A stretch of DNA of 64,000 nucleotides from Owenia fusiformis. Its lineage: Eukaryota > Annelida > Polychaeta > Sabellida > Oweniidae. Numbering within the stretch: the first letter of the stretch is position 1; each line of letters opens with the position of its first letter. This document shows, piece by piece, positions 40,941-63,487 of the stretch. Position numbers and translations under genes: made by a program. The stretch spans positions 16,287,754 through 16,351,753 of the forward strand of contig CAIIXF020000011.1 of NCBI GenBank assembly GCA_903813345.2, read 5' to 3'. Under the pieces are notes generated by a model. It had not been told where the DNA came from and made no database searches. It worked only from the letters and a program-made list of their open reading frames with translations.

Positions 40941-41571
40941 TGTTACGCGGTATATGGCATACATTCATGGTTGCGCGGTATTTGTGATACGGGTGAATAT
41001 GCCATACTCACCTGCGGTATATTGCATATTCCGCAGGTGAGTATGCGATATTTCGCAGTGAATATGAGATACATTGATTTCAGTGAATACCCGATACTCA
41101 CCTGCGGAATATGTCATACTCACTTGCGGAATATGCCATATACCGCAGGTGAATATGACATATACCGCAGGTGAAAACGTGATACAGAAAGGCTTGATTT
41201 GATTGGTTGCGAGAATCGACTCTAAATGTAAAACTACGCTGGATTACCAATATAGTTAGTGCGTCGATTACTAATATATGAATCCTGGATTGATTGAGTA
41301 AGTTTATTACGTGAGATTGGTGACTGATACTTCTGCTAAGTTAATATATTCGATACACAGTACTGTTGATTCAGTAATCATTATAATATTTTATTAAGTT
41401 TTACTTGTTCGTTCAATCGATGCAATTGACAATTGCGTACTTCCGTATCACGTTCTCATTGGTTAGTGTGTATGCCATATACCGCAGGTGAATCTGTCAT
41501 ACACCGCAAGTGAATATGCCATATTCGTTGCGGAATATGACATATTTTTGTATCGTGTTTACCGCGTAACA
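40941..41571. mobile_element. TGTTACGCGG family element, copy B (complete, 631 bp)
   Basis: Begins TGTTACGCGGTATATGGCAT and ends TACCGCGTAACA, with a 5-bp duplication ACCAC at 40936-40940 and 41572-41576. Two clusters of alternately oriented boxes (CACCTGCGG or CCGCAGGTG joined to ATATGCCATA) occupy both subterminal regions. The AT-rich centre is unique. No coding capacity: the 83-codon frame at 40923-41174 translates the repeat cluster. Confidence 0.88.
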
Positions 41572-41619
41572 ACCACCAAGTTGCTCACAATATCATTATT
41601 TCAATTTTAAATTAGATTT

Positions 41620-42050
41620 GAATTCCTGAGAAGAAAAATGGTCAATTTGAAGCAAGTTGAAAAAATACCTTTTTGACCTCGAGAAGGCCATTGAAGGTCA
41701 AATATTGTTTTTGACCTTGAGAATGTCATTGAAGATTGAATCTATAGTCAGAGTTGAACTTTTGAGAACTTGTAGATGATTCTGAAAAAAAATTGTCAAT
41801 TTGAAGCAAGTTGAAAAAATACCTTTTGACCTTGAAAAGGTTTTGAAGGTCAAATCTCAAATCTCAAATCAGATTTGAACTTATAATAACTTGAAAGATG
41901 ATTTTGAAAAAAAAATATTGGTCAATTTGAAGTCGAAAGAAGACCTTTTTGACTTTTGTTAACCTTTTTGACCTTGAAAAATTCATTGAAGGTCAAATCT
42001 TAAATATGAACTTGAAGAAAATTTTGAAAAAGTCATTCTAAACATCATTT
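41620..42050. repeat. Degenerate tandem repeat with TGACCTTGA / AGGTCAAAT boxes
   Basis: Blocks such as TTTTTGACCTCGAGAAGGCC, TTGAAGGTCAAAT and GTCAATTTGAAGCAAGTTGA recur four or so times with irregular spacing. Related sequence is at 24508-24740. Confidence 0.65.
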
Positions 42051-42077
42051 GTTAAATAATTGGAAGTTTTTGTTACA

Positions 42078-42145
42078 GACGCCAACCGACGATCGCCAAC
42101 CACCAACCGCCACCCGCCGATCGCCAACCACCAACCTCCGCCACC
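42078..42145. repeat. CCAACCACCAACC minisatellite
   Basis: Short variants of CGATCGCCAACCACCAAC repeat in a compact C-rich block, immediately next to the degenerate tandem repeat. Confidence 0.75.
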
Positions 42146-42334
42146 ACAATATGCCAACACTTTTCGGTGGTGACATAATAAATAATATTATTATTTCTCT
42201 GTACTGATAATCAGCATGTTATTGATCAGTCATGTACCATATGACTAAAAATATCACAAGGTATTCCATTCATGTGTAAGTCATCGATATGAAAGGTGTA
42301 TTTTTAGAAAAATAAATATAGGTATTCTGTTTTC

Positions 42335-42427
42335 GTGCAATACCTGTATATATTTCCGGGGGATGTATTCCACTTGCCCTTCGGGCTACGTGGAATACAC
42401 CCTCAGAAATATATACAGGTATTGCAC
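42335..42427. repeat. Strong hairpin / mini-foldback
   Basis: GTGCAATACCTGTATATATT is inverted at the right side ending in GCAC (42427), and the inner ATGTATTCCAC pairs with GTGGAATACA around a CCCTTCGGG loop. The 93-bp palindrome resembles those at 54991-55103 and in the 49480-50090 region. Confidence 0.8.
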
Positions 42428-43470
42428 TCAACATCACTCAATATTTGTATAGTATCATTGTATCGCTTATATATCGAATATGCTACATGATCCAACACAG
42501 ATTCTATCAGGGAAGCCAGATTTTCTGGGATAGTGCTATGCAATTAGTAAGAGTTGGATATGATATTTTACAATTAGTTAGAGTGGGATTGTTTTATACC
42601 ATGCAATTAGCGGGGGTTTGAGGAGTCTTTTATATCAGCAGTTTTGTTTTCACTCAATATGAACAGTTACTTGCTTTCCTTTATTGTCGCGGCCATTTTC
42701 TGCAATTTTCTCAAAAAGGTTTTTAAGAGGGGATATATTTAAGCTTCAAAATGGGACAGAACCTTTTATATTGCGTCTATCCGTATCCGCAAACAGATCA
42801 TTTTTATATATGCATTATATCTCGATATTGTCAAACACAATATATATAGCTGTATTACACTTCAAATCATTCAATAACTAATAATCACACTGGTCCATCT
42901 TATCGGGGTGTATCAACACCATTTCGCCCCGCAAAATCGTTAATTTGAATTTTAAATCTACTGGGTGTTTGAAAAACAAGGATTATGAGTCTCACACTGC
43001 ACCATTTTTCTTCAAACTTGTTCCATTATTGACAGCAAAACAAAAATACCTTTCTGTCGGTACGTCATTGTTTTATTGTACAGAGTCCCTCGTTTTAGCA
43101 ACGTTTTTGGTCGCCAGTTGTGAGATCACGCACATTTTCACAGCAGCAGATTCGAAATTACCCTGCACATCTGTTCAAAAAGGATCAATAATTTAAGTCC
43201 AGTCGTCTTTCACTAGGCTCCGTCGAGTCTTTGACTATGACAAACGTAGTTTCATAGTTTCCATCATTATATTTACCATGGTCGATTCTTAATACCGATC
43301 GACTTGTGTTTTAAGATTTACCTTAATAATTGTCTTGTCCATGAATACCAAGTCTCAGTCTCATAAGTTATAGCTTACGATTGTAGCTTGGTAAAGCTGA
43401 TCATACAAATGTGAAACTGTGGAACTTCTATAGACTTAACATTCCGTGGGACCTTGTGAGACATCATGGG
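42428..43470. other. No gene seen
   Basis: 42530-42610 contains three diverged copies of TGCAATTAG(T/C). An 83-codon frame at 42945-43196 has no recognisable domain. Confidence 0.4.
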
Positions 43471-43775
43471 ATTTTGCCCCATGAACCCAGTGGGCTTCCG
43501 TCGGTCGCTGCCTCGTCTATGCCTCATCGAGTCCTATGAGGCCCAACGTCACAGGACTCGATGGATTCGATGGCGCAATATGGGACAAAGTTCCACGAAG
43601 CCCCATCGAGAAGGAACATGGTTATTCTTTCCATGGGGCATCGTGGGTCTTTTGATCACACGACGTCAGTGTCAGGTGTTTTGGGATCAAAATGGCAGCG
43701 ATAAAACCTTCTAAACTACATGTTAATTACATCATTTCTTTGGGACTCGATGGAGCATGGCAGAGGCGTAGCTAA
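43471..43775. repeat. Possible foldback with CATCGAGTCC boxes
   Basis: CTCATCGAGTCC (about 43523) has inverted partners GGACTCGATGG at about 43555 and GGGACTCGATGGAGCATGG at 43742. The 82-codon frame at 43466-43714 crosses these boxes, and I regard it as non-coding. Confidence 0.45.
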
Positions 43776-45108
43776 GCCATTTCATCAGTGCACCCACTAC
43801 GCACGCAGTTAGAATAGCATTTTTATTTCAAAGTTGAACGTGCCGTTTCGAACTGCTACTTTGTTTGTGGCATGTAAATGGATGCATGTATACTACGTGA
43901 CAAGTTGCACCACATAGATTTTCATGCAGTGTCCCAATCTTCACCGATGAAAATAAACAAATAAAGTAGTTCCAGTTTACAGGACTATATTCTTGCGATT
44001 CTTTTCTAAGAATGGTACATTTAGAAAGTACTTACCCCAAGCTTTACATACATAGCTCAAATGGCCACTGTACATACACTTAAACTTACTATCACACCAT
44101 TGGATTTGGCATGGTTTCGCATTCTCAAAATTCATTTCGTTCGTTGCGTACCTTCACTACCTCTCTGACGTTGTTAAAATTGTTCTAAAATTCCCGGGGC
44201 ACGATCTGAGAAAGCTTCAGAAATTAGTACAATCTGTAATACTTTATCAGACAACGTCGAAATTTTAATATAACATAAATTATAATGCTTACAAATGATT
44301 TGACCGTCGAAATTGGTAATCTACGTTGTATTTGATGTGTGTTCAGGTAAGAATCTCCGCGGAGCAACAAATTGTAAAATGTCAAGATCGATAATCCCTG
44401 GGATCAAGGTATGAGGTTCCGTATCCATCCGCCAAAAGGTTTTGATTCCAAAGTATATTTTGGGGGAAAAGTCAATATTATGAAAGATATTGAACTTTTT
44501 GTAACTGTAACATTTTTTGAGACACACTGTAGTTTTCATAGAGTAACTTCTATTAACATTCGTGTCGCTGCATTTCAGTGAAATCGAGATGTTCCCCTGT
44601 ACCATCTATTCTCATCCTTGGTTCCGAATCATTTCAACCACAATGCATTACTGTAATAGTTTAGTTATATAATTAACATGCTTTTACAAACGATCTGATT
44701 GATTCATTTCCTGCATTGGTTCACCCTTTGCAAAACTTATAAAAACAGCCTTAAATCATGCAATAAGCGGCTCAATCCAAGAGTGAATTACTCGTTTTTG
44801 AGGCCAGGGTATTTTTTATTTACCAAATCGTATTTCAAGGACATGTACTGACTATATCCCCGATATCGTGATAAAATCAGAAAGGACTCTAGGATGCATT
44901 GAAAGCAAAATTACCAGGAGCATAGTATTCAATAGATATGAGTATAATGATTCCCGTTGACACCAATGTGAAATTTCAAATTTCCCGTTCTAGACACGCA
45001 ACACTGACGCTGAACAGGTACAGTATTGAAGCGCATACAAAGGTATACAGCTAATTCCTATGTTGAATTCACGCTTTCGCTTAAATCTTCCCGTTCACGT
45101 TTACATTG
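43776..45108. other. No gene; short match to the composite element's repeat
   Basis: 44408-44440 matches the first 33 bases of the 469-bp repeat (GGTATGAGGTTCC onward) with one difference, then diverges. I found no clear right end. The rest is unannotated. Confidence 0.5.
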
Positions 45109-45110
45109 TA

Positions 45111-45729
45111 CAGGGTGGGCCAAAAAAAACGCCACTTTTTTTCAAGACGCTACAACTTTTTTATTTTCCAACCTACATACCCCAAATTTTGCAGTTATAT
45201 AGTGCCAGGGTTTTTAGTAATAATATAATGTAAAAAGTCCTTCAACTTTGATTATATTTGATCTAAAAGAGGAGTTCAATTGGTCCCCCATTCTATTTGA
45301 TGATATATTTTAGTTTTAGTCGCCTTGCTGATATAGCAGTATCAATGAAAGGTTAGCTAAGTTTTTTCAACCTGTCTTAATTGCCAACTTTAGTTAAGCA
45401 ATTTTCTAGATTAGGTGCCTTCATACAATCTCCTGGAGACCTTCCCATACCCTATACTCACTGGAGTTTGCGTCAGGGCTATAGGCTTGGCGATCATCAG
45501 GTCGAATCACTTCAGGAATATTTTGTAAATTATGCTTATTTCTCATGGCACACCACATGTTTAAGTGTGACGCTGGTGACATATTTTATTCATGTAAAAG
45601 TGTATAATTCATGATCTATGGCTAGATAACAACCTCAAGTTTCATTAGGTATGCAAATTATGATTTTGTATCAGAAATTAAAAAAGTTATAGCACTTTGA
45701 AAAAAAGTGGCGTTTTTTGGACCACCCTG
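45111..45729. mobile_element. MITE with CAGGGTGGGCC ends and TA target duplication
   Basis: CAGGGTGGGCC, then an A-run and CGCCACTTTTTTTC, is inverted at the right end, which finishes GGACCACCCTG. TA flanks both sides (45109-45110, 45730-45731). CAGGGTG-type ends with TA are common among mariner/Tc1 MITEs. The 619-bp interior is non-coding. Confidence 0.85.
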
Positions 45730-45751
45730 TACAAACATAACCTCTCTTGTA

Positions 45752-47378
45752 ATGCCTGGGTCACATAGCCGCCGGGCGCCGGCCGATGAGTAGTCATCTG
45801 CCGATTTATAAATCGACCGGGCGCCGGTGACTTTTCACCGATGTCTTGATCTAATCGTGAGTATGGTCACATTAGTACAGGCATCGTACGGCGCCCGCAA
45901 TCAATTGAATCTGAAAGACATCGCACGGGTATCGCAAGGCTATCGGCCGATGGCCGTACGGGACCCGCCAGGACATCGGTCGATTTACAGGCCTCTAGAT
46001 TTATACTTAATCCCTGAATGACCCAGTGTGACTGTTCCACATGGCGTGAATGCAACATTTGAAAACGAAATACTTTGATAAACAGGACTTCCAGGATAAT
46101 AATGTTTTCATGCAATAAAAATCAGAAAAAGAAGATGCTCTTTTGAGTAAATAGGTTCAATATTTAGAAAAAATGTTGACATGGGGTCCCTATTCATTAT
46201 TTTTCGAATTGTTTGATTGATATTTTTATCATCATGGGTACTTCAATTGAAAGAAAACATATTGTTTTAATAAAAACACTCTATTTGTGCCCAGAAGGTA
46301 CTCATGGTGAAAGATATGACCGTCTAAAATCACTTGCCATACTGGACGTGGTCTTTTCATCAAAGTGCACCCTGATCTTAATTCATTTTTAGATCTTTCA
46401 TATAAAACAATACTATGTCTACCTGTCCATCCGATGCTATTAGCAAAATTCCCTATTTCTCCATCTTTCTTTCGTCTGTTCTTGTAAAGAGAATTAGTTT
46501 GGTCATAAAGATATGGCTTCGAAGAAATTGGCATATTTCTTCTGTTTCAAGTGGAGTACCCGCTTCCCTATAGACACATCTAAATCTTCATCATCCACCA
46601 GCTCAGTAGCATTGTTATTTTCTTTTTCCACCTGTCTTCCCAAGGCCTTCCTCATATATGGCCCATTGGCCTTATCCCCTCTATCCTTAGCCTTTGGCAT
46701 ATTACGTTGTAATTGAGACGTAATTAATCGTAGTAAAATTGTGACCCTTGAAATTACTGTACTCACAAAAACATTCCGAAGGTTTTTAAATGCATGAGTG
46801 AATATACGCATAAAAATGTAACACTCTATTCAATGTGTATGACAGACATACACGATTAATGTCAATATAAGAACGACTAGATCAACCCACCCACCCAGCC
46901 ATTCAAATGTGTGCCATTGTTTTACATGTATATACAGTAAGCTTAATCGTTCCATTTATGTTTTATAAAAATCTCTGACAGTGTGTAGTAATTATAATTC
47001 CTTACCTCATTATTTTTAAAACCTTTATATCACTTTATAAGTAATCATTATTAAGATTTATCCAACAAATCAGCACGCAAAATCCAAAGATGACCGTGCG
47101 ATGCCACCGGGCGCCGTAAGATAATCGTACGATGATCGGGCGGGACACGGCCGGGTAGGTACCGATGAGTTTGGTTGAGAAAAAATCGCCAAGACATCGG
47201 CAACTTTTATCTCCGCGATAAAACTCTGCCGGCGCCCGTACGATGTCTAAAAATCGGCCGATGAGTGGCGATCATCGCCCGGCGCCCGTACGATGCCCGG
47301 GCTCGCCGGCCGATTTTGAACAAAATACTCATCGGCCGGGCGCCGCAGTGAAAATCGGAGCCTATGTGACCAAGGCAT
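45752..47378. mobile_element. 1.6-kb TIR element with GGCGCCCG-rich subterminal repeats
   Basis: ATGCCTGGGTCACATAG at the left end is inverted at the right end with one mismatch (CTATGTGACCAAGGCAT). Both subterminal regions (45765-46000 and 47085-47365) are dense in CCGGGCGCC, GGCGCCCGTACGATG and ATCGGCCGATG boxes in both orientations. These GC-rich blocks contrast with an AT-rich centre that holds minus-strand ORF remnants. The target duplication was not resolved because the flanks are themselves partly palindromic (TTGT/ACAA). Superfamily unknown. Confidence 0.75.
46232..46811 (-). pseudogene. Unassigned ORF fragments inside the GGCGCCCG element
   Basis: Two minus-strand frames overlap. 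One (46503-46811) has a basic-then-acidic stretch with MPKAKDRGDKANGPYMRKAL, then ELVDDEDLDVSIGKRVLHLK. The other (46232-46534) contains KKDGEIGNFANSIGWTGRHS and RPRPVWQVILDGHIFHHEYL. Composition looks more protein-like than neighbouring chance frames, and a frameshift near 46510 could join them. I do not recognise the family. They could be a decayed transposase or a captured host gene fragment. Confidence 0.35.
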
Positions 47379-49149
47379 AACAAATCGAACGAACTGTTGC
47401 GGATAGATATGCAGAGTTCGATGTCTGCAGCTGATATTTTGTCAACTGTTTCTATCGACTACTCTAGTCAATTGATATATCTGTATCACATTTCGGAAAT
47501 GAACGGTATATAATATCGTGACAATACGATGGCGAGAAGCCTATTTCATTGATAATGGGGCGAATTCGATAGGAAATCTGATCGGAAATTGAATTTTTTC
47601 GATTTTCAGGTAGGCTATCCCCGAGCAATACGTTCAGTGCTTGGTAAGACATTGACAATAATATAACCTAATAATATGGTAGTGAATAGCTTATTCCATT
47701 TATTATGGCAGAAATTCAATCAGAAATCTAACAGGAAATTGAAATAGTTTAATTTTTAAAGATAAGCAACACTATTCCGTCCTTCCCAAGGTTCTTGACC
47801 GTTTCTGACACCGTGATCAGTTCAGATATAGTCCCTGTCAATAGCTCTATTACTTTGCATGCGAATCCATTTGAGTGACATTTTAATGAAAGTATGCCAA
47901 TGACGATATATGTCACGTGACTGTGGATTTACTTATTTATCATATGGATTATTTTACAAACCAATATGCAATTATCAACTGCATTGGTGTATTATTACAC
48001 CATAATTATTCCGAGCTTTTAACTTCTAGTTATCATCATTTATTGTTATTGTTATTGTGAAAACTACTGAACGACAGGGTGATCCATAATTTATGGTACA
48101 AATTACATAGAATAGAATAGGATAAAAGATGTTATTTCTTGTGAAAACTGTTTAATTGTTAAGAATTATAGATGTATTATCACTTATGATTACCATTGTT
48201 TTCCCACATCAAAGCACCTATAGCTTCTGAGCCCTTTGATATTTTTCTGATTAGCAAGCTTTAATCTGTCATATGATATTATCTATTAATATTCTTATTT
48301 TTTGTTTATCTTAAAAAGCGCAAAGCGACCTTTCAAATGAGCCATGACTTATGTTTTAACAATTTTTCCTTGCATATATAGACCAAAATGTCGGATTTGA
48401 ATTTAGTACATTTCCCTCTTAATCTTGGGCACACTTTTGACTCTGTAGAATAATTTAAATTTTTGTGATATGACCGGTTTTCCTATGGCCATGCTTTATC
48501 AAAGCACCTAATATCTGCAAGGGGGGGGGTCAATCCGAAATTATATTGGAACAATACCAATACATACATTCATACATCTGAATACTAAATCACTAATTGG
48601 CATTTGTTGCACATCCGATCTTGTAATATGAATTATAAAGACAAAAACAAGTTAAACTTGAAATTGCTGACTATTCAATATCACGTTACATTGATTTCAA
48701 TGATATTTTGCGATACCTGCTATCTTTGAAAGGGTATACATTAGTTCCAGAAAAACTTTCACCATAGTTTTATTTGAAAGATATATGAAATAGATGCATT
48801 TTTTGGCACTAAAAATAATTGTGAAAGAAAAACGACAATTTATCACAAAATGTCAAAAATTGACACCCCTGAGGTCATGTTGACCTAGATTTGATCCTTG
48901 TTGACCTAATTAAAAATATTCTGTAGAGGTTATTGAATAAGGTTTACAACAATACCAACAATATTGAAATCAGACAAGTATATAGAAAATCGCAGAGGAG
49001 GGGGGGGGGTTGACCCCTCTTGTAACTTAGCGTTATAACAAAGGTTGCAGACATTAGGGTTAACCTGCCATATCTATTGATGTACATGTATCAAAGTTTC
49101 TACTGGGCGCTTGATGTATCATTTAGCACCTACTGAGCGCCTGGATATT
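47379..49149. other. No gene seen; possible worn piggyBac-type relative
   Basis: G-runs at about 48521-48530 and 49001-49009, both followed by (T)TGACCCC-like or GTCAATCC sequence, and an AGGGTTAA at 49056-49063, recall the MITE at 17837-18487. A left end could not be found, so the relationship is unproven. Confidence 0.35.
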
Positions 49150-49620
49150 AACCTGTCTTATCCTATGCCAAGTAGAGTTTTAGGGAGATAAGTTGGTAAG
49201 ATATATCCCGTATCCTGATTTTGAGGTTTCCATATCCTGAACCTCCATATCTCCCGCCATATCTCCCGCTCCAGGGCATATCTTCCCGCTTCGAAAAAAA
49301 TTGAAAAAAAATTGAAAAAAAGAAAAAATGTAAAAAAAATTGAAAAAAATAAAAAATTGAAAAAAATTTGAAAAAATTGAAAAGAAATTAGAAAAATGTA
49401 AAAGAAAATTGAAAAAATTGAAAAAATGAAAGAAAATTAGAAAACCTTACTTGGTATAGGATAAAGCAGTTATGTACGGTCGGTTTGGATATTGGGTTCA
49501 TCCCTCGTCAGATATGCACATCTACCTTCGGTCCCTACGGTCCCTCAGGTAGATATGCATATCTCCCTCTGGATAAACCCCATATCCAAAACCTCCCAGT
49601 ACATAACCCTTATTTATCCC
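49150..49620 (+). repeat. Interspersed repeat with foldback, plus copy of the family at 14422-14690
   Basis: CGTATCCTGATTTTGAGGTT and GATAAAGCAGTTATGTACGG match the reverse complement of the 14422-14690 copy. Between them lies a low-complexity GAAAAAATT tract (about 49287-49440). The right side folds back: GTTTGGATATTGGGTTCATC against GATAAACCCCATATCCAAAA, around an AGATATGCACATCT-like core. Confidence 0.7.
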
Positions 49621-50737
49621 ATACTTGGACGTGTTTCAGGTACATAAAGCCGGTTTGTAAAAACTTATATTTTCATCAGCGGACAGATATACGTGTAGCT
49701 TTACGTCCCGCTCCGAGCGGGCAGATATAGTATATCTGCCATCTACGTCATAATCGCCGTTCCCATATTGGTTCATTTTTTGTAATGTTCGCATACTGTA
49801 AACGACAATGGAGACAATCGCGATCTGTTTGATGCTTCAAAGAAGGCCAAGGAGCAGTATGCCCTGTTAATAATCAAAGATTCGAACAGGATTGAAATAA
49901 TTCCACGGTTGGTTGCAACGTTTCAAAGACTGTGGCCAATTGAACAATGTGAACCAAATGACCAAGATTGGTATGGGATGAACAGATCATCCTATAGTCG
50001 GTTCAGGATATTGGGATTATCCCGAGGCTAATATAATATATCTGCCCGAGGACCGTAGGTCCCGAGGGTAGATATTGGCCAAGGGAACCTCATAAAGGAT
50101 AATCTCTATATACAATTAAACCTTGCCCAGTGTTATTTTATTCTTGTAAGTTTGATCGGTTTATTCCAAATGGTCGTGTTTTTATGACCATTTTGCAAAA
50201 CAAACGCCAAAGCACACCAAAATAACCCAATATGTACCCCAATAATTTTATACTTGGGGGTATTTAAAAGGTCATGTGTACACTGACAATCCAAGAACCA
50301 TCAAAGTTGAAACAAGAGATTAAAAAGGAAAATGAGAGCCATTACACAAGGTATATATTATCGTGTTTTTAGAAAATTATTGCGAAACACATAATTGTCT
50401 CCCAACAATGGATGTACAATAGATAGTCATGTTTACAAGGTAAACGACTTACAGAATTCCTTACAGCGATTCAAATACAACCATTTCAAGTCAATGCTAC
50501 ATGGCAATTAAATTGAGTAATTGCCACGTTTCATGTTCAATAATATGTTATTTCCGAACTTTTCTTTAATGATTGTCCTGAGATTTGACTTAAATGATTA
50601 TATTCATGCTTAAGAAAAATAGATGGAAATACGAGGGATGATCATGAAGTTATCATAACATTAACATAATCATAACATCTCTCTGTAGACATGGAGAAAT
50701 CCTCTATGACATCACACAATTCAAATGATCAATTCAT
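49621..50737. other. No gene; further copies of the AGATAT/TCCCGAGG palindromes
   Basis: 49680-49740 and 49995-50085 contain paired boxes such as ATATCTGCCCGAGG and CCCGAGGGTAGATAT, similar to 28640-28790 and 30530-30590. No supported coding region. Confidence 0.45.
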
Positions 50738-50898
50738 TTAACCCTAGAAGCCATAAGGACGTGCTCTCTTGAGAATAAAATCACGCAATCTTATATAATC
50801 ATAGTTTTTAAAGTTGTTACGCCACAGTATATACTTGGATGAAGTATATTGAGGAAATTTTCAACATCCTAGCTTTACTAATAAATATTCTACAGGGC
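50738..50898. mobile_element. Truncated piggyBac-like MITE fragment
   Basis: Begins TTAACCCTAGAAGCC, as at 17833, and continues with homologous internal sequence (AATAAAATCACGCAATCTT, then CATCCTAGCTTTACTAATAA). It has lost the G-run and the right end. Confidence 0.75.
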
Positions 50899-51819
50899 CT
50901 CTTTAGCTAGAGGGGACAGCATTTGTTGCACAAAGATAAAATTCCCTATACTGAAAATGTGCAGTTATAACTTATAAGGGAGATACAACGTGACCTGTCA
51001 TATGTTGTACTCTTTATCCAAGAAAATGCCATGTTAATGAAAAACGAGTATTAGCGACTGACAATAAAATACAAAGACATAACGGACCCAGATGACTGGT
51101 TAATGCAGACTGGGAATACTTAACCAAATTTAATTATTCCAAGATACAGAGTGCAATCAGATCGTCGCTTTCTCGTTAATATATGGTGGATGGTAAATTT
51201 AAACGTTTGGACATCTTGAGCTAGCGGCATTTTCAGAGCTGGGTAAATATGCCAATCCATTTCTAATTTCTGTAAAACATCATAAATAAATAGAGGAGTT
51301 TCTAAATAATTTTGAAATCTCGCTAATTCTCGTTTTTTCATGAGATTTTAAGAGATTTGCACATTTTACCTCTAATGACTTACTTTTCTTTCTTTTTAAA
51401 ATTCTTTAAAATCATGGTTTAATCGTATGACAACCAACATTTTCATGTTTAATCACAATATGTTCATTGACAGGATCATTTAATAGTATGCCATTCAAGT
51501 TTCAGACAGATTTAACTAGCACTCTTTAAATTTGATAAATCATGAAATTAAGTGACTATTGCAAGCTTTTAGCATAGAACTCAAAGGAAGGTTGGCCCAA
51601 GATGAACAACGGTGACATCTATTATGTCAGCTTTATTCAGCTTTATTTAGCTATTTAGAAACTATACTATTGAACGTCAGTATTGGCTCTCTTAACGGTG
51701 TCTTAAACAAAACTTAATCGCAATTTAAGTGTAAAGTTGATGTCTTTTACAAACATACATGTGTGATTTCATCAAATAAATCATTCCATCCAATGCATAA
51801 ATAACTAGATAACGGCAAC
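50899..51819. other. No confident gene
   Basis: A 73-codon minus frame at 51120-51341 (with FQNYLETPLFIYDVLQKLEM) has a plausible composition but no recognised family or supporting context. Confidence 0.4.
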
Positions 51820-52595
51820 TCCGCGGAGTAGCAAATCGCAACGAACAAAATATCAATTACCGAATTCCAATCAATTATACTCATTACTTTGGTTAAAATT
51901 GAAAAATTTAAATTTTAGAATTGTGAATTCCTGCAAAGCAGCCATTTTGAAATATCTGACGTACAAATCTGAAAAATAATACCATAATTGTGATCTACTC
52001 CAAAATTCCTTCAATTTGAGTATAATATAGCCATACTTTGAAGGGATCGAAAAATTATTGCGAAATCGAACATTAGACGACCATTTTGAATTTTACAAGG
52101 CTCGAATCAGAAAAAAAGATACAATATCTGCAATCTACTCTTAATTGCCTTTCATTTGAGTATAATAAAGCTATACTTCAGAAAGATCTAAAAATTAGCG
52201 ACAATTTCTGTTTTCCTGACCCCCCCCATACACGGCCCCTGGGGGTCAGGGTGAAAAACACGGAATATATGTGAAATAGATAGATGTTGCGAATATACTA
52301 CCAACATTTCCAACAATAATATTGATTACTTTGGTTTAGAATGAAAAATTTATGATTTTTGCGAAAAAGTCCCGTCATTTTTAAAGCGGCAGCCATCTTG
52401 AAAAAAACTATTCATCAATATACATCTTTCCACCAAATATGAAGAAAATCCGTCAACTAATATTTGAGTTATCTTCCGGACAGACGGACGGACTGACTGA
52501 CTGATTGACGGACTGACGGACGGACGGACGGACGGACAGACGGACGGACGGAGGGCTTCACTATATCCCTACCGAACTTTGTTCGTTGGGATAAT
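51820..52595. repeat. Interspersed repeat ending in a GGAC microsatellite
   Basis: Two diverged tandem blocks (AATCTGAAAAATAATACCAT... and AATCAGAAAAAAAGATACAA..., each followed by an ATTTGAGTATAAT box and GCTATACTT) lead into a GACGGACGGACGGACG-type tract at about 52485-52552. The element then ends in TATCCCTACCGAACTTTG and TTCGTTGGGATAATTA. An ordered repeat-plus-microsatellite tail like this suits a non-autonomous transposon end. Confidence 0.6.
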
Positions 52596-54732
52596 TACAG
52601 TTCAGAGATTTGTGTCTCGAAGTCCGCGCTTTACGTATTTTATCTGAATGTTCTTCAATCAATGTAAAAAAGGAGTGTCATTCATTGATCATAGATACGA
52701 GTTGTTAAAGCCCTCTGAAATCAGCTATGGATCTCTGGGTTATTCATTACGTATTAACCCGTTGTGCGAAACCTCCATTGTCTAAAATACTAGTGGTAAT
52801 TTTGCCTAATCATTTCATTTGCCTATTGCCTAATTTTAACCAAGTTCAGAAAATTAAATGTCGGAAATCCTATCTTCATAAATTGTTATCCAATGGGAAG
52901 TTTCTTGTTACTTAGGAAAATTTAAATTAGGAAAATGATAAAATTTGACCATTCGGCAAATTAACCACTCGGATTAAATACTACAGTACTGCGCAATATC
53001 AAATTGTTTTTAAGGGACTCAGGTGCTACATTCATCCCTCAGAATATTTTTCATTTTTCTAACTACTGTTTGATACACTTAACGACCTCATTTATCATGC
53101 AGTCACTTATGGGGCCAGTTAAGCTTCTAAATATGACGCTCCATCTGTGTGAGAATTGATTAATTTTTGAACTCTAAACTTATGGTCATGATAACTGGAA
53201 CTTATGCTATGCAAATCCACGCAATATTGCATTAAATCATATCCATGGAGTATTGTATAAGGGAGCATCTCAAAAATTCAATGTTGGATTATATTATAAA
53301 CTGTATTTGCACAGTTGATCTGTGACCCCCCTCCCCCTCATAACTGTGTTTGAGAAATGTTGATATGCGTTATTTCAAAAGTCACACTTTATCTAACATA
53401 AAATGTAAAATATAATAATTTCTATAACTATTCAAATATGTATTTTTGTACCTTATCAGAAGTGCACTGGACAAAAAGGTCACTAGGAGTCTAGGACTAT
53501 GTATTATATTGATTCTGCCTCGACTTTGGAATATCATTTATGATACTTCGAAGATAAGTCTAGAAACCACTTGTTGATCTGCATGATCTTCAGAGATGAC
53601 AAAGAAACATAGACCATGTCTAGACAGAAGATGAATTTTCTTAAAAAACACTATTTGCACATTGAACAATCGATAAAATGTCAGAAATACCTTGATTGAT
53701 TAAGATGGGAAGTATCTTACAAGAGAACCTTATATTTAGCTGTCAAGACTTGTAAGTCTCAAACATCAATAGTTTAATCGAATAAATCTCACTCATTCCA
53801 TACCAAATCTCACGAATCATCATCACCATTGTTTGAATCGTGTAACTATGCCCTACATTGAATCTGTCTTGACTTTGACATATCATATGATAACATTTGA
53901 TCGTTTAATAACGTCATTTCAAAGGGCAATAGTGAAATATTGGACCTTCAATATTTCACTTTTTTGCCCGCAATAATTACTATTATTACCACCGTTAATG
54001 CTCAGGGCTGAAATAGAAAATTTGAAATAGAAAATCTTACGCACTGAACGATATCACTTTTCCCGGGAAACATAGCCGGGCGGATAATGTCATTATTGCC
54101 CGACTAAAGTCATTAACGCCCGACACAATATTGCTCACGTCAATATAGCAATTTAAATGCCTTCTCACTTAGTACTAAAACCCATAGAACAGGCCCTAAA
54201 TAATATTCCTTGTTTATCAACATGTTCTGACAGAGATGGAAAAAAGACCAACCTTATTTTAAGCTCGCATTTTGAACAACTTGATGCAAGAAAAAGAAAA
54301 TGATTTTCCTTAAATCTAGAAAATGTTCAAGAGACGATAAATCACCCTCTATTTGCTGAACAACTTTAAATCTGGATTCGAAGCCTTTAGATCTGGTTTG
54401 GAATTGACAAATCATCATACACCATAATTTGGTTCCCAGCATTAAATTAAAGGCTCAGTCTGATCCATTGAGCAACCTTTACAAAAATGGTCTTACTTCA
54501 GAATTTTATTCTCTAAAAACAAACATTTTTAGTTTATTGCAGGTTTTTGAATTTTTCTACTTTTTTTATTGTGCTTAATGCAAGTTTTTTCGTGTCTATG
54601 TTATTTATTACCCTTGGCCAAAGATGGATGACACTTTTGGCGTAAAAATCAAAGTGAATGAAAGTAAAGGGGAAGAGTTATGATAGTCGGAAGTTGATGT
54701 CAATAAAAATGAATTTCATTAAATATTGATAG
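52596..54732. other. No gene seen
   Basis: AT-rich; a short perfect hairpin lies at 53933-53962 (AGTGAAATATTG, loop, CAATATTTCACT). Open frames are short and domain-free. Confidence 0.45.
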
Positions 54733-54985
54733 TTATAACATACCTATGATGATGTATAGTGCAAAGTGTACACAAGACAGCGGGCCAATATAAGTTTTGA
54801 AAAGCCCGCGCCCGCTAACTTTCTGATTGGTCAAGGCGCTGACGTCATAACCAATCAATCGAAGATAAAACTGCGCGAGCAATTTTTATAAACTCATTTC
54901 AATCATTTTCAAACCATTTGTTTGTCAATTCTATAAGAAAAACGGTACTCTCTGACCAGTCTACATCATCATAGGTATGTTATAA
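54733..54985. mobile_element. Small MITE, TTATAACATACCTATGATGA ends
   Basis: The 24-base left end is exactly inverted at 54962-54985. The 253-bp interior is non-coding. The element abuts a separate hairpin on its right. Confidence 0.8.
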
Positions 54986-54990
54986 ATCGT

Positions 54991-55103
54991 TTATGTCACT
55001 ATCGTGGCACATATGCCCTCGGTTCTCAGAGATCAATGTCCCTCCCAAGGTCGGGCCATATATCACTGAGACCTCGGGCATATATGCCACGATAGTGACA
55101 TAA
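54991..55103. repeat. Strong hairpin / mini-foldback
   Basis: TTATGTCACTATCGTGGCAC pairs with GCCACGATAGTGACATAA across a loop containing GGTTCTCAGAGATC. The 113-bp palindrome has an architecture like the one at 42335-42427. Confidence 0.82.
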
Positions 55104-55500
55104 CCTCTAATTACTTATTTTTTATACTGTAGATAAATGGAAAGTGATCATTATTGCTCGGTTTGATAGCTAAACATTTAGCATATTGAAATTACAATAT
55201 GATTTATTTCATGGAAATCAAGCCACTGTTGACTATCTCATGATTTTTTAAGGCTGAGATACAGGTATTCGCGAATTGCCTTCTCTTCACGAATTTGGAA
55301 GAAAAACGTTTTTTTACAAAAAGTACTTGGGAAATACCTTTGAAATTTGTTTGCATGTTTTTGAATATATGTGCAAATTGTTTTCGGAGAATTATGATGA
55401 AAACATTATCAAAATTTGGGATATAATTTTCGTTCTCCTCTTCCCTAGATTTTAATTTCACTAATTCGCGATTGATTTACACATGCTTTTGGTTGGTGGT
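55104..55500. other. No gene seen
   Basis: An 85-codon minus frame (55204-55461) is lysine- and asparagine-rich without recognised motifs. Confidence 0.45.
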
Positions 55501-56008
55501 TGTTACGCGGTAAACAAAATACAAATATATGCCATATTCCGCAACGAATATGGGATATTCACTTGCGGTGTATGACAGATTCACCTGCGGTATATGTCAT
55601 ACACACTAACCAATGAGAACGTGATGCTGAAGTACGCAATTGTAAATTGCATCGATTGGACGAACGAATAAAAGTTTATAAATTATTATAGTGATTACTG
55701 AATCAGCAGTACAGTGTATCGAATATATCAACTTATGCCGAGGTATCACTCACCAATCTCACGTAATAAACTTACTCAATCAATCCAGGATTCATATATA
55801 AGTACTCTACGCACTAACATTATTCGTAATCCAGCCTAGTTTTACATTTAGAGTAGATCCTCGCATCCATTCAAATCAAAACTTTCAGTATCACGTTTTC
55901 ACCTGCAGTATATGTCATATTCATATTTGTGATACGAGTGAATATGCCATACTCACCTGCGGTATATGGCATATTCCGCAGGTGAGTATGTCATATTCCG
56001 CAGTGAAT
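55501..56008. mobile_element. TGTTACGCGG family element, copy C (truncated)
   Basis: Starts TGTTACGCGGTAAACA and follows the inverted orientation of copy A, but stops at CGCAGTGAAT (56008), missing about 120 bases of the far end. The left flank is GGTTGGTGGT; no right target duplication remains. Confidence 0.82.
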
Positions 56009-56245
56009 GGCGTCATTTTTTGCGACCAGATTGCCTGTTTTCGTGGGCTTATTGTGTGAAAATATGTATGATGTGATATCCTCTTTGAGTTTCCTTTTCT
56101 GTGGGGTCCAGTACCCCGGCATCAGTGCAGAACTACCGCTCAAAATCATCATGGTTAGATCTAACGTATTAGGAACAAATAACAACTCTGCACTTGTATT
56201 TTTGAAGGAGTTGCCTGTCTCTGGAGGAAAGATGGTGATCCCCGT
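55991..56245 (-). other. Possible orphan exon or gene fragment
   Basis: On the minus strand a TTGTCTGTTAG sequence (a plausible splice acceptor ending at 56246) precedes an open frame of about 85 codons. It reads GITIFPPETGNSF, then SGSSALMPGYWTPQKRKLKE, then DITSYIFSHNKPTKTGNLVA, and runs into copy C, where it ends. Composition is more protein-like than neighbouring frames. I recognise no family. It may be the remnant of an exon cut off by the element, or chance. Confidence 0.3.
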
Positions 56246-56249
56246 CTAA

Positions 56250-56710
56250 CAGACAACTGTGTCACTGGGTCAATTTATGATTTTTATTTTCAATATTACA
56301 CCAAAACTAACAAATAACAAGTTTTTTTTATCTTGTTGGATTTTATTAAGTAGTATTGTAACTACATATTAAGATGATTAGAAGACCTGACATTATTTCT
56401 GCTTTAAGAAAGGCGACAACTTGACCCTACAGATTGAAACTGATGTTTTGCTCACTTGACCCTTGCAAAAAGTTTCATTGAACATATGTTATTTTTGTGA
56501 TTACGTATTTTTTAGGTGATTTCGAAGAATATATGTTGCAATGTGTGAAAATAATTTAAACCCAAGACCTACATTGTGGCTGATTCATTCCACTCGGGCG
56601 TTGTTTCCTTAACTTAATTCTCGATTCTGCGATTTTCATGCAACGTTTGAAAGAACACCTTAGAGGAATGATAATCAGTCCACGAAACTCTGAGTCCCAG
56701 GGCTTAAATC
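56250..56710. other. No gene seen; left flank of the satellite
   Basis: AT-rich sequence leading to the 70-bp array without an obvious boundary motif. Confidence 0.45.
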
Positions 56711-59700
56711 CCTCTTAACTCTTCTGGTTCCTTTATCACGATGATCAAGTCTTAATAGTGGAGATTGTTCCGGACGTGTTTCTCTTAACTCTTCTGGTTC
56801 CTTTATCACGATGATCAAGTCTTAATAGTGGAGATTGTTCCGGACGTGTTTTTCTTAACTCTTCTGGTTCCTTTATCACGATTATCAAGTCTTAATAGTG
56901 GAGATTGTTCCGGACGTGTTGCTCTTAACTCTTCTGGTTCCTTTATCACGATGATCAAGTCTTAATAGTGGAGATTGTTCCGGACGTGTTTCTCTTAACT
57001 CTTCTGGTTCCTTTATCACGATGATCAAGTCTTAATAGTGGAGATTGTTCCGGACGTGTTTCTCTTAACTCTTCTGGTTCCTTTATCACGATGATCAAGT
57101 CTCAATAGTGGAGATTGTTCCGGACGTGTTTCTCTTAACTCTTCTGGTTCCTTTATCACGATGATCAAGTCTTAATAGTGGAGATTGTTCCGGACGTGTT
57201 TCTCTTAACTCTTCTGGTTCCTTTATCACGATGATCAAGTCTTAATAGTGGAGATTGTTCCGGACGTGTTTCTCTTAACTCTTCTGGTTCCTTTATCACG
57301 ATGATCAAGTCTTAATAGTGGAGATTGTTCCGGACGTGTTTCTCTTAACTCTTCTGGTTCCTTTATCACGATGATCAAGTCTTAATAGTGGAGATTGTTC
57401 CGGACGTGTTTCTCTTAACTCTTCTGGTTCCTTTATCACGATGATCAAGTCTTAATAGTGGAGATTGTTCCGGACGTGTTTCTCTTAACTCTTCTGGTTC
57501 CTTTATCACGATGATCAAGTCTTAATAGTGGAGATTGTTCCGGACGTGTTTCTCTTAACTCTTCTGGTTCCTTTATCACGATGATCAAGTCTTAATAGTG
57601 GAGATTGTTCCGGACGTGTTTCTCTTAACTCTTCTGGTTCCTTTATCACAATGATCAAGTCTTAATAGTGGAGATTGTTCCGGACGTGTTTCTCTTAACT
57701 CTTTTGGTTCCTTTATCACGATGATCAAGTCTTAATAGTGGAGATTGTTCCGGAGGTGTTTCTCTTAACTCTTCTGGTTCCTTTATCACGATGATCAAGT
57801 CTTAATAGTGGAGATTGTTCCGGACGTGTTTCTCTTAACTCTTTTGGTTCCTTTATCACGATGATCAAGTCTTGATAGTGGAGATTGTTCCGGAGGTGCT
57901 TCTCTTAACTCTTCTGGTTCCTTTATCACGATGATCAAGTCTTAATAGTGGAGATTGTTCCGGACTTGTTTCTCTTAACTCTTCTGGTTCCTTTATCACG
58001 ATGATCAAGTCTTAATAGTGGAGATTGTTCCGGACGTGTTTCTCTTAACTCTTCTGGTTCCTTTATCACGATGATCAAGTCTTAATAGTGGAGATTGTTC
58101 CGGACGTGTTTCTCTTAACTCTTTTGGTTGCTTTATCACGATGATCAAGTCTTAATAGTGGAAATTGTTCCGGACGTGTTTCTCTTAACTCTTCTGGTTC
58201 CTTTATCACGATGATCAAGTCTTAATAGTGGAGATTGTTCCGGACGTGTTTCTCTTAACTCTTCTGGTTCCTTTATCACGATGATCAAGTCTTAATAGTG
58301 GAGATTGTTCCGGACGTGTTTTTCTTAACTCTTCTGGTTCCTTTATCACGATGATCAAGTCTTAATAGTGGAGATTGTTCCGGACGTGTTTCTCTTAACT
58401 CTTCTGGTTCCTTTATCACGATGATCAAGTCTTAATAGTGGAGATTGTTCCGGACGTGTTTCTCTTAACTCTTCTGGTTCCTTTATCACGATGATCAAGT
58501 CTTAATAGTGGAGATTGTTCCGGACGTGTTTCTCTTAACTCTTCTGGTTCCTTTATCACGATGATCAAGTCTTAATAGTGGAGATTGTTCCGGACGTGTT
58601 TCTCTTAACTCTTTTGCTTCGTTTATCACGATGATCAAGTCTTAATAGTGGAGATTGTTCCGGAGGTGCTTCTCTTAACTCTTCTGGTTCCTTTATCACG
58701 ATGATCAAGTCTTAATAGTGGAGATTGTTCCGGACGTGTTTCTCTTAACTCTTTTGGTTCCTTTATCACGATGATCAAGTCTTAATAGTGGAGATTGTTC
58801 CGGAGGTGTTTCTCTTAACTCTTCTGGTTCCTTTATCACGATGATCAAGTCTTAATAGTGGAGATTGTTCCGGACGTGTTTCTCTTAACTCTTCTGGTTC
58901 CTTTATCACGATGATCAAGTCTTAATAATGGAGATTGTTTCGGACGTGTTTCTCTTAACTCTTCTGCGGTTTCTTTATCACGATGATCAAGTCTTAATAG
59001 TGGAGATTGTTCCGGACGTGTTTCTCTTAACTCTTCTGGTTCCTTTATCACGATGATCAAGTCTTAATTGTGGAGATTGTTCCGGACGTGTTTCTCTTAA
59101 CTCTTCTGGTTCCTTTATCACGATGATCAAGTCTTAATAGTGGAGATTGTTCCGGACGTGTTTCTCTTAACTCTTCTGGTTCCTTTATCACGATGATCAA
59201 GTCTTAATAGTGGAGATTGTTCCGGACGTGTTTCACTTAACTCTTCTGGTTCCTTTATCACGATGATCAAGTCTTAATAGTGGAGATTGTTCCGGACGTG
59301 TTTCTCTTAACTCTTCTGGTTCCTTTATCACGATGATCAAGTCTTAATAGTGGAGATTGTTCCGGACGTGTTTCTCTTAACTCTTCTGGTTCCTTTATCA
59401 CGATGATCAAGTCTTAATAGTGGAGATTGTTCCGGACGTGTTTCTCTTAACTCTTCTGGTTCCTTTATCACGATGATCAAGTCTTAATAGTGGAGATTGT
59501 TCCGGACGTGTTTCTCTTAACTGTTCTGGTTCCTTTATCACGATGATCAAGTCTTAATAGTGGAGATTGTTCCGGACGTGTTTCTCTTAACTCTTCTGGT
59601 TCCTTTATCACGATGATCAAGTCTTAATAGTGGAGATTGTTCCGGACGTGTTTCTCTTAACTCTTCTGGTTCCTTTATCACGATGATCAAGTCTTAATAG

Positions 59701-61546
59701 TGGAGATTGTTCCGGACGTGTTTCTCTTAACTCTTTTGGTTCGTTTATCACGATGATCAAGTCTTAATAGTGGAGATTGTTCCGGAGGTGCTTCTCTTAA
59801 CTCTTCTGGTTCCTTTATCACGATGATCAAGTCTTAATAGTGGAGATTGTTCCGGACGTGTTTCTCTTAACTCTTTTGGTTCCTTTATCACGATGATCAA
59901 GTCTTAATAGTGGAGATTGTTCCGGAGGTGTTTCTCTTAACTCTTCTGGTTCCTTTATCACGATGATCAAGTCTTAATAGTGGAGATTGTTCCGGACGTG
60001 TTTCTCTTAACTCTTTTGGTTCCTTTATCACGATGATCAAGTCTTAATAGTGGAGATTGTTCCGGAGGTGCTTCTCTTAACTCTTCTGGTTCCTTTATCA
60101 CGATGATCAAGTCTTAATAGTGGAGATTGTTCCGGACTTGTTTCTCTTAACTCTTCTGGTTCCTTTATCACGATGATCAAGTCTTAATAGTGGAGATTGT
60201 TCCGGACGTGTTTCTCTTAACTCTTCTGGTTCCTTTATCACGATGATCAAGTCTTAATAGTGGAGATTGTTTCGGACGTGTTTCTCTTAACTCTTCTGCG
60301 GTTTCTTTATCACGATGATCAAGTCTTAATAGTGGAGATTGTTCCGGACGTGTTTCTCTTAACTCTTCTGGTTCCTTTATCACGATGATCAAGTCTTAAT
60401 AGTGGAGATTGTTCCGGACGTGTTTCTCTTAACTCTTCTGGTTCCTTTATCACGATGATCAAGTCTTAATAGTGGAGATTGTTCCGGACGTGTTTCTCTA
60501 AACTCTTCTGGTTCCTTTATCACGATGATCAAGTCTTAATAGTGGAGATTGTTCCGGACGTGTTTCTCTTAACTCTTCTGGTTCCTTTATCACGATGATC
60601 AAGTCTTAATTGTGGAGATTGTTCCGGACGTGTTTTTCTTAACTCTTCTGGTTCCTTTATCACGATGATCAAGTCTTAATAGTGGAGATTGTTCCGGACG
60701 TGTTTCTCTTAACTCTTCTGGTTTCTTTATCACGATGATCAAGTCTTAATAGTGGAGATTGTTCCGGACGTGTTTCTCTTAACTCTTCTGGTTCCTTCAT
60801 CACGATGATCAAGTCTTAATAGTGGAGATTGTTCCGGACGTGTTTCTCTTAACTCTTCTGGTTTCTTTATCACGATGATCAAGTCTTAATAGTGGAGATT
60901 GTTCCGGACGTGTTTCTCTTAACTCTTCTGGTTCCTTTACCACGATGATCAAGTCTTAATAGTGGAGATTGTTCCGGACGTGTTTCTCTTAACTCTTCTG
61001 GTTCCTTTATCACGATGATCAAGTCTTAATAGTGGAGATTGTTCCGGACGTGTTTCTCTTAACTCTATTGGTTCCTTTATCACGATGATCAAGTCTTAAT
61101 AGTGGAGATTGTTCCGGACGTGTTTCTCTTAACTCTTTTGGTTCCTTTATCACGATGATCAAGTCTTAATAGTGGAGATTGTTCCGGACGTGTTTCTCTT
61201 AACTCTTCTGGTTTCTTTATCACGATGATCAAGTCTTAATAGTGGAGATTGTTCCGGACGTGTTTCTCTTAACTCTTTTGGTTCCTTTATCACGATGATC
61301 AAGTCTTAATAGTGGAGATTGTTCCGGACGTGTTTCTCTTAACTCTTCTGGTTTCTTTATCACGATGATCAAGTCTTAATAGTGGAGATTGTTCCGGACG
61401 TGTTTCTCTTAACTCTTCTGGTTCCTTTATCACGATGATCAAGTCTTAATAGTGGAGATTGTTCCGGACGTGTTTCTCTTAACTCTTCTGGTTCCTTTAT
61501 CACGATGATCAAGTCTTAATAGTGGAGATTGTTCCGGACGTGTTTT
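56711..61546. repeat. 70-bp satellite array, about 69 monomers
   Basis: The unit (TCTCTTAACTCTTCTGGTTC, then CTTTATCACGATGATCAAGT, CTTAATAGTGGAGATTGTTC, CGGACGTGTT) is exactly 70 bp and almost invariant over 4.8 kb. Sparse variants (GGAGGTG, GGACTTG, CTTTTGG, and a 2-base insertion giving CTTCTGCGGTT) recur in ordered blocks at offsets of 1122, 1332 and 2172 bp. These equal 16, 19 and 31 monomers plus 2 bases. That pattern indicates recent unequal exchange or block duplication. Open frames inside it are artefacts: 70 is not a multiple of 3. Confidence 0.95.
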
Positions 61547-61775
61547 TCACACGATTTGGACTTGTTTTGTAAGAATATGGAATACGATATCCGTTAGAAT
61601 GGAGCAAAAAGGTAAGAATATTTTACAAACTAACTTGACTTCTACCTAAGATGTTCTTCATCATATCAACGGATCTATCGTGGGGATCATTCCATTATAC
61701 TTCATAGTAATCGCAATTGTATACAAAAACGCAAGAAATATGTACTAAATCTGCATTAAGTGTTATTTAATTAAC

Positions 61776-61885
61776 GATTCCTGCAAATAACGCGTTTGCA
61801 GGTACCTGAAGTTAGGATTTGTAGTATGGTAAGCAATATAAATTACATAGATTTACATTAAGTCAAGTGACAGCAATTTCATAAC
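61776..61885 (+). repeat. Direct repeat, copy 1
   Basis: CTGCAAATAACGCGTTTGCA, then CACCTGAAGTTAGG-like and GTCAAGTGACAGC segments, recur in the same orientation and order at 62231-62347. Confidence 0.8.
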
Positions 61886-62230
61886 AAACAATACATTCTA
61901 CAACGTGGAATAATATTCACTCCTCTAAAGATCGTGTTTATATTTTAACTATCTTTATCTTGAAATTGCAATAAATAACCGTAAATGTAGAGAGTGGAGT
62001 TAACGATGGATTAAGGATATTTTTAACACGTCCAAACAGTTTCGTCTAGTTCTTTCCTTATCAATTGATGTATCCATTGAATACAAGCCAGGCTAATCAT
62101 ATTCAGCCAAAAATATGTGTTACACTGACAGAATCGCTCACTTTTTTATTATTTTTTTATCTATTAAAATCATATTAACATATTTACAAAGTAATGATAA
62201 AGACACCGATATAACAACACTATAGCATAG

Positions 62231-62347
62231 GATTCGTGCAAATAACGCGTTTGCGGGCACCTGAAGTTAGGATTTGTATTATGGTAAGCATTACGCAATA
62301 TAAATTACATACATTTACATAAAGTCAAGTGACAGCTATTCCATAAC
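62231..62347 (+). repeat. Direct repeat, copy 2
   Basis: Second copy of 61776-61885, about 455 bases downstream, with several substitutions and a short extra GCATTACG-type insertion. Confidence 0.8.
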
Positions 62348-62425
62348 CAAATTTATCAACCTACATCTCAAGTTTTCTTAAAAGGTCCAAATCGTGTAAA
62401 ATAACACGTCCGGAGCAATCTCCGC

Positions 62426-62846
62426 TGTTAACACTTGGGCACCGTGTTTATTGAAGGCAGAGAAAAACAACGCATTTGAATGCCGATGACATAAAATACA
62501 ATTGTACAAGAGGAGCTCTAATAGGTTCTTAGGAAGTATAACGAACGTATAATAGGTGTATAATTATAGAGGTTGTGATTGAAGCGGCAATTACACCATG
62601 TTTTATTGTATTGCACTTTAAGTTTTCACATCCCATTCCCCTTTTATTAGAAATCTGTGTGCACGGGGCTAATGATTAAAGTAATGAAATGGCTTTAAAG
62701 AATACTTACTACGTAGAATACCTTCACTATTGATGCTATCTTGTTAAAACAACTCTCGACAGGAGACCCCAACACACAACACTTTATTTTAATTTCAGAA
62801 TTGTTTTCAAACGATTCTTTATTCAAATATGCCATATTAATACATG
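62426..62846. other. No gene seen
   Basis: Non-coding spacer before copy D of the TGTTACGCGG family. Confidence 0.45.
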
Positions 62847-62851
62847 ACATC

Positions 62852-63482
62852 TGTTACGCGGTATATGGCATACATTCATGGTTGCGCGGTATTCGTGATA
62901 CGGTTGAATATGCCATACTCACCTGCGGTATATGGCATATTCCGCAGGTGAGTATGCGATATTCCGCAGTGAATATGCGATACATTGATTTCAGTGAATA
63001 CCCGATACTCACCTGCAGAATATGTCATACTCACTTGCGGAATATGCCATATACCGCAGGTGAATATGCCATATACCGCAGGTGAAAACGTGATACAGAA
63101 AGCCTTGATTTGATTGGTTGCGAAAATCGGCTCTAGGTGTAAAACTACGCTGGATTACCAATATAGTCAGTGCGTCGAGTACTAATATATGAATCCTGGT
63201 TTGATTGAGAAAGTTTATTACGCGAGATTGGTGACTGATACTTCTGCTTAGTTAATATATTCGATACACAGTACTGTTGATTCAGTAATCATTATAATAA
63301 TTTATAACGTTTCACTTGTTCGTTCAATCGATGTAATTGACAATTGCGTACTTACGTATCGCGTTCTCATTGGTTAGTATGTATGCCATATACCACAGGT
63401 GAATCTGTCATACACCGCAAGTGAATATGCCATATTCGTTGCGGAATATGACATATTTTTGTATCGTGTTTACCGCGTAACA
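62852..63482. mobile_element. TGTTACGCGG family element, copy D (complete, 631 bp)
   Basis: Same length, ends and orientation as copy B, with a 5-bp duplication ACATC at 62847-62851 and 63483-63487. The central AT-rich region and both motif clusters align with copy B with few differences, so both copies are fairly young. Confidence 0.9.
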
Positions 63483-63487
63483 ACATC

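Follow-up and report, generated by a model that had tools for sequence, protein, structure and literature searches.

We have analysed a window of 64,000 nucleotides in the genome of the polychaete Owenia fusiformis (contig C11, CAIIXF020000011.1, positions 16287754-16351753), which carries four copies, designated A to D, of a 631-bp repeat that is very probably a DNA transposon rather than the long terminal repeat (LTR) of a retrotransposon. Copies B and D are complete at 631 bp each and are 95.7% identical to one another. Copy A lies on the minus strand and is interrupted by a 4,329-bp insert, which separates a main part of 590 bp (92% identical to B) from the second tip. Copy C, also on the minus strand, matches positions 162-631 of B at 86%, and its final 85 bp (55924-56008) match B 39-123 at 94% in the opposite orientation; it is therefore truncated and perhaps also rearranged, and no target duplication is visible at its flanks. 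A first-pass annotation of the window had described four copies with shared ends and architecture, a split A, a truncated C and three 5-bp duplications (GTTTC, ACCAC and ACATC), and each of these features is present as described. The features are as follows, with the strand where one applies and the basis in brackets.

35224-35228: target duplication GTTTC, left of copy A (flank sequence)
35229-35251, minus strand: tip of copy A, B positions 609-631, with the TGTTACGTGGTA end (95.7% over 23 bp)
35252-39580: 4.3-kb foreign repeat inside copy A, not part of the element (pieces in common with the insert of genomic copy L011 at 90-93%; apparent 3-bp duplication ACA)
39581-40170, minus strand: main part of copy A, B positions 1-611 (92.2% identity)
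40171-40175: target duplication GTTTC, right of copy A (flank sequence)
40936-40940: target duplication ACCAC, left of copy B (flank sequence)
40941-41571, plus strand: copy B, complete 631-bp element (alignment to copy D and genome copies)
40941-40952, plus strand: 5' terminal inverted repeat, TGTTACGCGGTA (agrees with the 3' end at 12 of 12 bases)
40947-41168: left array, 12 matches to the box GCGGTATATGGCATA in both orientations, mostly at a 22-bp pitch (box search)
41471-41544: right array, four box matches (box search)
41560-41571, minus strand: 3' terminal inverted repeat, reading TACCGCGTAACA (12 of 12 bases identical to the 5' end)
41572-41576: target duplication ACCAC, right of copy B (flank sequence)
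55501-56008, minus strand: copy C, truncated, perhaps rearranged, with no visible target duplication (alignment to B)
62847-62851: target duplication ACATC, left of copy D (flank sequence)
62852-63482, plus strand: copy D, complete 631-bp element (alignment to B)
63483-63487: target duplication ACATC, right of copy D (flank sequence)

The foreign repeat within copy A has the ends CAGTTGGACGGCACATTG...CAATGTGCCGTCCTACTG, and a relative of 5.7 kb with a ~237-bp tandem inside it sits in family copy L011. Tandem repeats of ~162 bp (40181-40837) adjoin copy A, with a related stretch at its other border (35166-35229), and a satellite array of ~70-bp units, ~97-98% identical, occupies 56712-61548 between copies C and D.

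In order to assess the extent of the family, the host genome (498 Mb in 525 contigs) was searched. Copy B gave 1,116 first-look candidates, and all 40 of those scored align with it at 97-100% across 629-631 positions. There are 806 occurrences of the 12-base end TGTTACGCGGTA (416 on one strand and 390 on the other), versus 40 of a reversed-pattern control; together with the 40 near-full matches, these counts show that the family is not a product of chance. Seventy-two full copies were collected, and two with exactly repeated flanks were dropped. The remaining 70 lean young, because some were taken as the best matches to B and the others were chosen by an intact end. Pairs of these copies diverge by 5.4% on average, a copy differs from the column majority by a mean of 3.2%, and the length is exactly 631 bp in 45. 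The copies thus form a recently spread, young multi-copy family.

The first-pass annotation had found no internal coding part, and this is borne out: the window contains three stop-to-stop open reading frames of at least 150 aa, all outside copies A-D. They are a 7tm_1 receptor (20148-21278, minus strand), a reverse-transcriptase fragment (22775-23917, minus strand) and a frame within a tandem-repeat stretch (26220-26711). The window has no tRNA genes, and its 11 Rfam matches are all to microRNA families, each under the gathering score, probably because of an internal palindrome. Copies without such a frame, present in large numbers and at similar size, have the make-up of a miniature inverted-repeat transposable element (MITE).

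The ends shared by the copies are their true termini. The first-pass annotation had made its definition of the element depend on 5-bp duplications at most genomic copies and on genuine ends, and the definition stands, as the duplication is exact in 55 of the 70 copies, with one mismatch in 10, two mismatches in one and four or five in four. The next 5-mers further out match exactly in none of the 70, and a 4-bp or 6-bp register matches in none of the 70 and in none of a stricter set of 58. The stricter set was made by a loose filter for near-duplicate flanks, which drops 14 of the 72 copies and also merges chance likeness; near-identical flanks do persist within the 70 (L033/L051 and L099/L107, for example). 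Within the 58, the duplication is exact in 45 and has one mismatch in nine. Two copies inserted into other copies of the family, L005 and L027, have TATGT and TATGG, respectively, on both sides.

Most copies end in TGTTA, the termini being TGTTA...TAACA. Outside the duplication there is a weak palindromic target, GTN-[5 bp]-NAC, with G at 31 and T at 37 of 70 left flanks and A at 32 and C at 36 of 70 right flanks (one-sided p against window composition of 3e-7, 3e-4, 0.012 and 2e-10, respectively); in the filtered 58 the counts are 24, 32, 27 and 32 (p of 2e-5, 3e-4, 0.016 and 2e-10). Such a mirror-image preference would be expected if two enzyme units approach the target symmetrically.

Internal to the termini, the 12-bp inverted repeat shows partial likeness on to base 22, and the first box (positions 7-21) lies within this terminal repeat region. 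The oppositely oriented subterminal boxes reported in the first-pass annotation proved to be general among the 70 copies. With up to four mismatches allowed, GCGGTATATGGCATA is matched 16 times in B, versus a mean of 0.4 in Markov-shuffled sequences, and a mean of 15.8 times per copy over the 70 copies. Of all these matches, 825 fall within the first 235 bp and 277 within the final 115 bp, which leaves three for the middle. Neighbouring boxes on one strand are most often 22 bp apart, a spacing seen 519 times. The boxes are part-palindromic, so that many are counted on both strands and the separate sites are fewer than the matches.

The young 631-bp form probably derives from a longer form of ~850 bp by loss of ~230 bp. 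Copy L015 is 847 bp long, with both ends present and GATAT on either side, and its interior of ~230 bp is common to L064, L095 and L105; B lacks it except for a short stretch. A search with this interior gave 146 first-look candidates, and scoring of the best 40 gave 41 matches. The presence of the interior in older copies is what marks the 631-bp form as a probable internal-deletion product, and the longer form is apparently also non-coding. The sequence TGTTACGCGGTA followed by G or C is rarer (8 occurrences) than its control (15), so there is no large second family with the 12-base end in that form. Four head-to-head doubles (L058, L059, L062 and L080) have their outer flanks in common and were carried inside another repeat; L096 holds a further head-to-head double, whose kinship to these four was judged by eye.

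The family is most likely a MITE, a 631-bp non-coding and non-autonomous DNA transposon, and it is hypothesized, with modest confidence, that it moves by cut-and-paste through an integrase-like transposase. A transposase made elsewhere would act in trans on the element, binding the box arrays at both ends (12 matches on the left and four on the right in copy B), pairing the ends and cutting at TG...CA. The element would then be inserted across a 5-bp stagger in the target, which would account for the 5-bp duplication. As to the enzyme, an integrase type (Ginger2/TDD or a relative) is about an even call.

The TGTTA...TAACA ends, the 5-bp duplication and the weak palindromic target fit an integrase-like enzyme. 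TGTNR ends are the rule in Ginger1, Ginger2 and most Gypsy elements, and TDD-4 and TDD-5 make 5-bp duplications (PMC2836005). In the animal Ginger2 elements described in that account, the duplication is 4 bp long, RTATAY is the preferred target and the inverted repeats measure roughly 50-180 bp (45-297 bp among the Ginger2/TDD elements tabulated there). The TGTTA termini of the Owenia fusiformis family fit the TGTNR rule as in Ginger2/TDD, and its 5-bp duplication is like that of TDD-4 and TDD-5 and unlike the 4 bp of the described animal Ginger2. A short Nematostella family of 252 bp with more than 50 copies, Ginger2-1N1_NV, is given there too (PMC2836005); its name and size suggest that it is non-autonomous. 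The integrase-like IS3EU elements have TA...TA ends and usually 6-bp duplications, with occasional TG...CA ends in GingerRoot (PMC10045372), and the present family differs from them in its 5-bp duplication and TG...CA ends. The ends and duplication also recall a bacterial system. The termini of Tn7 are TGT...ACA. Tn7, through TnsB, makes 5-bp duplications and has arrays of transposase sites that are unlike at the two ends and 22 bp long in the right end (PMC11406308). The family may be compared with Tn7-type elements in anatomy, namely the 5-bp duplication and the unlike end arrays, and no kinship is claimed. TGTNR ends, the duplication length of TDD-4/5 and the poor fit of other groups' ends make the integrase group the best guess.

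Several results weigh against this explanation. No autonomous copy with the family's tips, whether with the H2C2-DDE integrase-like transposase of Ginger2/TDD elements or with another, turned up in the sequence read, which covers the ends on contig C1 and part of the young ends genome-wide. On C1, none of the 49 single ends, read over ~690 bp and in four cases extended to 5-8 kb, led to a transposase. The PF00665 integrase core has 782 candidates in the genome, and among the best 150 a single match comes within 12 kb of any listed young end (199 in all); it is part of a Gypsy insertion in copy L111. The short 115-bp deletion form L084 has no second full-length match among the best 40 of 1,482 candidates scored, and so does not demonstrate that the tips alone suffice for movement. 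The family's 12-bp inverted repeat, with boxes beyond it, and its GTN-5-NAC target also differ from animal Ginger2, and 12 bp falls short of the 45-297 bp tabulated for Ginger2/TDD elements in PMC2836005; with this mismatch the family cannot be filed as Ginger2. Finally, LTR families also change length, so that the older, longer form alone does not decide against LTRs.

The search for a partner bears on one of the two parents suggested in the first-pass annotation, a longer element with the same tips around a transposase, which was encountered neither on the 99 ends listed on C1 nor in the part of the genome-wide young ends that was read. The C1 ends comprise 25 pairs and the 49 singles, of which 48 are family and one (L086) is not. 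No transposase frame was recognised in the 20 pairs read whole or in part, and the other five have spacings of 590-638 bp. All seven C1 pairs of more than 700 bp (L009-L015) were read, and they appear to be family copies interrupted by foreign DNA, copies that are nested or adjacent, or the 847-bp older form; the two longest frames in the 9.4-kb insert of L012 have no Pfam match. Genome-wide, the lists cover 100 young 5' ends out of 122 and the full set of 99 young 3' ends. These ends form 34 pairs, 27 of them at the ordinary spacing of 600-660 bp, of which a minority was read; two pairs of odd length on C3, outside the reading, span 461 and 577 bp. We probed over 601 bp the 46 unpaired 5' ends that were not otherwise known, together with 10 unpaired ends of the 3' type; of the 43 young 3' ends that are unpaired and fall outside both C1 and the 40 best copies, 12 were read. 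Thirty-eight of the 46 probed 5' ends keep to the ordinary structure at least as far as position 594.

The odd ends that were followed led to long interspersed nuclear elements (LINEs), Gypsy elements, other inserts or probable host genes. A 6.0-kb pair on C6 (L110) encloses a LINE with endonuclease and reverse transcriptase, L111 the Gypsy element already mentioned, and the extra DNA of L074 and L097, at first sight a longer subfamily, is an LTR-type repeat. The frame reached from L170 has a GDPD domain and that reached from L171 is a 7tm_1 receptor, both probably host genes. L174 holds a LINE remnant (zf-RVT below cut-off). L172 runs into a long frame without Pfam match that is cut by the locus end; L173 and L175 lead to inserts or neighbouring DNA without assigned identity, and L146 and L152 carry inserts. 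Among the PF00665 matches scored, 17 are on C1, none closer than 14.9 kb to a listed end. PF24764 (rva_4) has no match near family ends, with over 130 kb between each of its three C1 places and the nearest listed TGTTACGCGGTA end, and PF09299 (the Mu/TnsB C-terminal domain) has no match in the genome, nor did any control genome match it. An autonomous element may have altered tips, sit in the unread part, or be lost from this individual.

These negative searches leave room for a MITE moved by some other or undescribed superfamily that makes 5-bp duplications, for instance a new group or an aberrant relative of hAT or Transib, which we take to be quite possible though not what we would expect. 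The end length and duplication, which differ from those of animal Ginger2, speak for it, as does the lack of any candidate near the ends from PF00665, PF24764 or PF09299, the hAT and Transib families not having been searched. Transib elements make 5-bp duplications but begin with CAC, hAT elements begin with YA, and TGTTA fits neither; the TGTNR ends point to the integrase group. An unlikely variant is that the family is what can be seen of an undescribed group of animal DNA transposons of integrase type, marked by TGTTA ends, 5-bp duplications and, as in Tn7, many sites per end, here at a 22-bp pitch. In its bolder form, a resident LTR retrotransposon may supply the integrase that moves the element in trans, no reverse transcription being involved.

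The first-pass annotation had left the choice between solo LTR and MITE undecided, and only the MITE half of that choice is upheld, by the boxes and by a test of pairing. Were the copies solo LTRs of BEL or Gypsy type, recombination between two LTRs would have left a single 631-bp LTR with the original 5-bp duplication. The TG...CA ends and the 5-bp duplication, within the 4-6 bp of LTR elements, are indeed as in LTR retrotransposons and their solo LTRs, and the genome has many integrase-core matches, with many of the 150 scored in open frames of more than 1,000 aa. Proviral LTRs lie as direct pairs. In order to look for such pairs, same-strand neighbours 1-15 kb apart were sought in lists that cover parts of the family, and the 40 best copies gave none, 100 of the 122 young 5' ends one and the 99 young 3' ends one. 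In the 5' pair, which involves L144, the partners are 5.8% apart, versus a mean of 6.0% for the 31 copies compared, and one right flank is family interior; in the 3' pair, the partner L037 has its own AGTAG duplication. Both pairs were rejected, and the parent with two direct 631-bp repeats around gag-pol that the first-pass annotation had suggested is thus missing from the lists examined.

By contrast, a repeat of the same genome met by accident in the interior of L097 forms nine direct pairs from 18 of its 40 places, 2.65-4.58 kb apart (41 matches over up to 633 bp, one short piece being left out). By this pair arrangement alone, it behaves like an LTR-type repeat, perhaps a small non-autonomous LTR element. 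Unlike LTR retrotransposons, the family shows no such pairing in the lists examined, bears boxes in arrays at each end and yielded no internal part; to our knowledge, mirrored box arrays at both ends are not a feature of LTRs. A solo LTR origin is accordingly very improbable, and we reject it with high confidence on evidence that is good, if not absolute. That the copies are units of a larger repeat, the 5-bp flanks belonging to that repeat, is hardly credible and is refuted in general, since 58 copies differ in flanks after the loose filter and 45 of them have exact 5-bp duplications; it applies to a small number of copies that other repeats have taken along, as flanks are shared exactly by two of 72 copies (up to 14 of 72 under the loose filter) and L058, L059, L062 and L080 have one flank in common.

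A DNA transposon with LTR-looking ends is easily misfiled as a solo LTR, and the pair test, with an LTR-type control from the same genome, is a cheap discriminator. If the enzyme of the proposed MITE is integrase-like, the family adds another case for the link between Ginger elements and LTR retrotransposons, which bears on the origin of LTR integrases. With a candidate enzyme available, the regularity of the 22-bp box arrays would allow its binding site to be tested. In the literature, TGTTACGCGG occurs in 10 papers, unrelated to judge by their titles, and no text match joined subterminal repeats, MITE and 5-bp target site duplication.

Two other repeats were encountered. At 10497-12223 of the window lies a pair of 471-bp direct repeats with 100% identity, separated by 1.26 kb and bordered by ACAA on the outer and TTAA on the inner sides; the pair looks like a young small element of LTR-like structure but with GG...CC ends. 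Elsewhere in the genome, an integrase-core transposon of rva_4 type (PF24764), possibly an IS3EU element, has a 309-aa frame and gives an identical score at 15 places. Five of its loci on C10 and C11 (L177-L181) were read, the element's ends lying beyond the sequence read; three of the four compared with L177 are 99.5-99.8% identical to it over 3.5 kb, and L179 is identical to L177 in two pieces.

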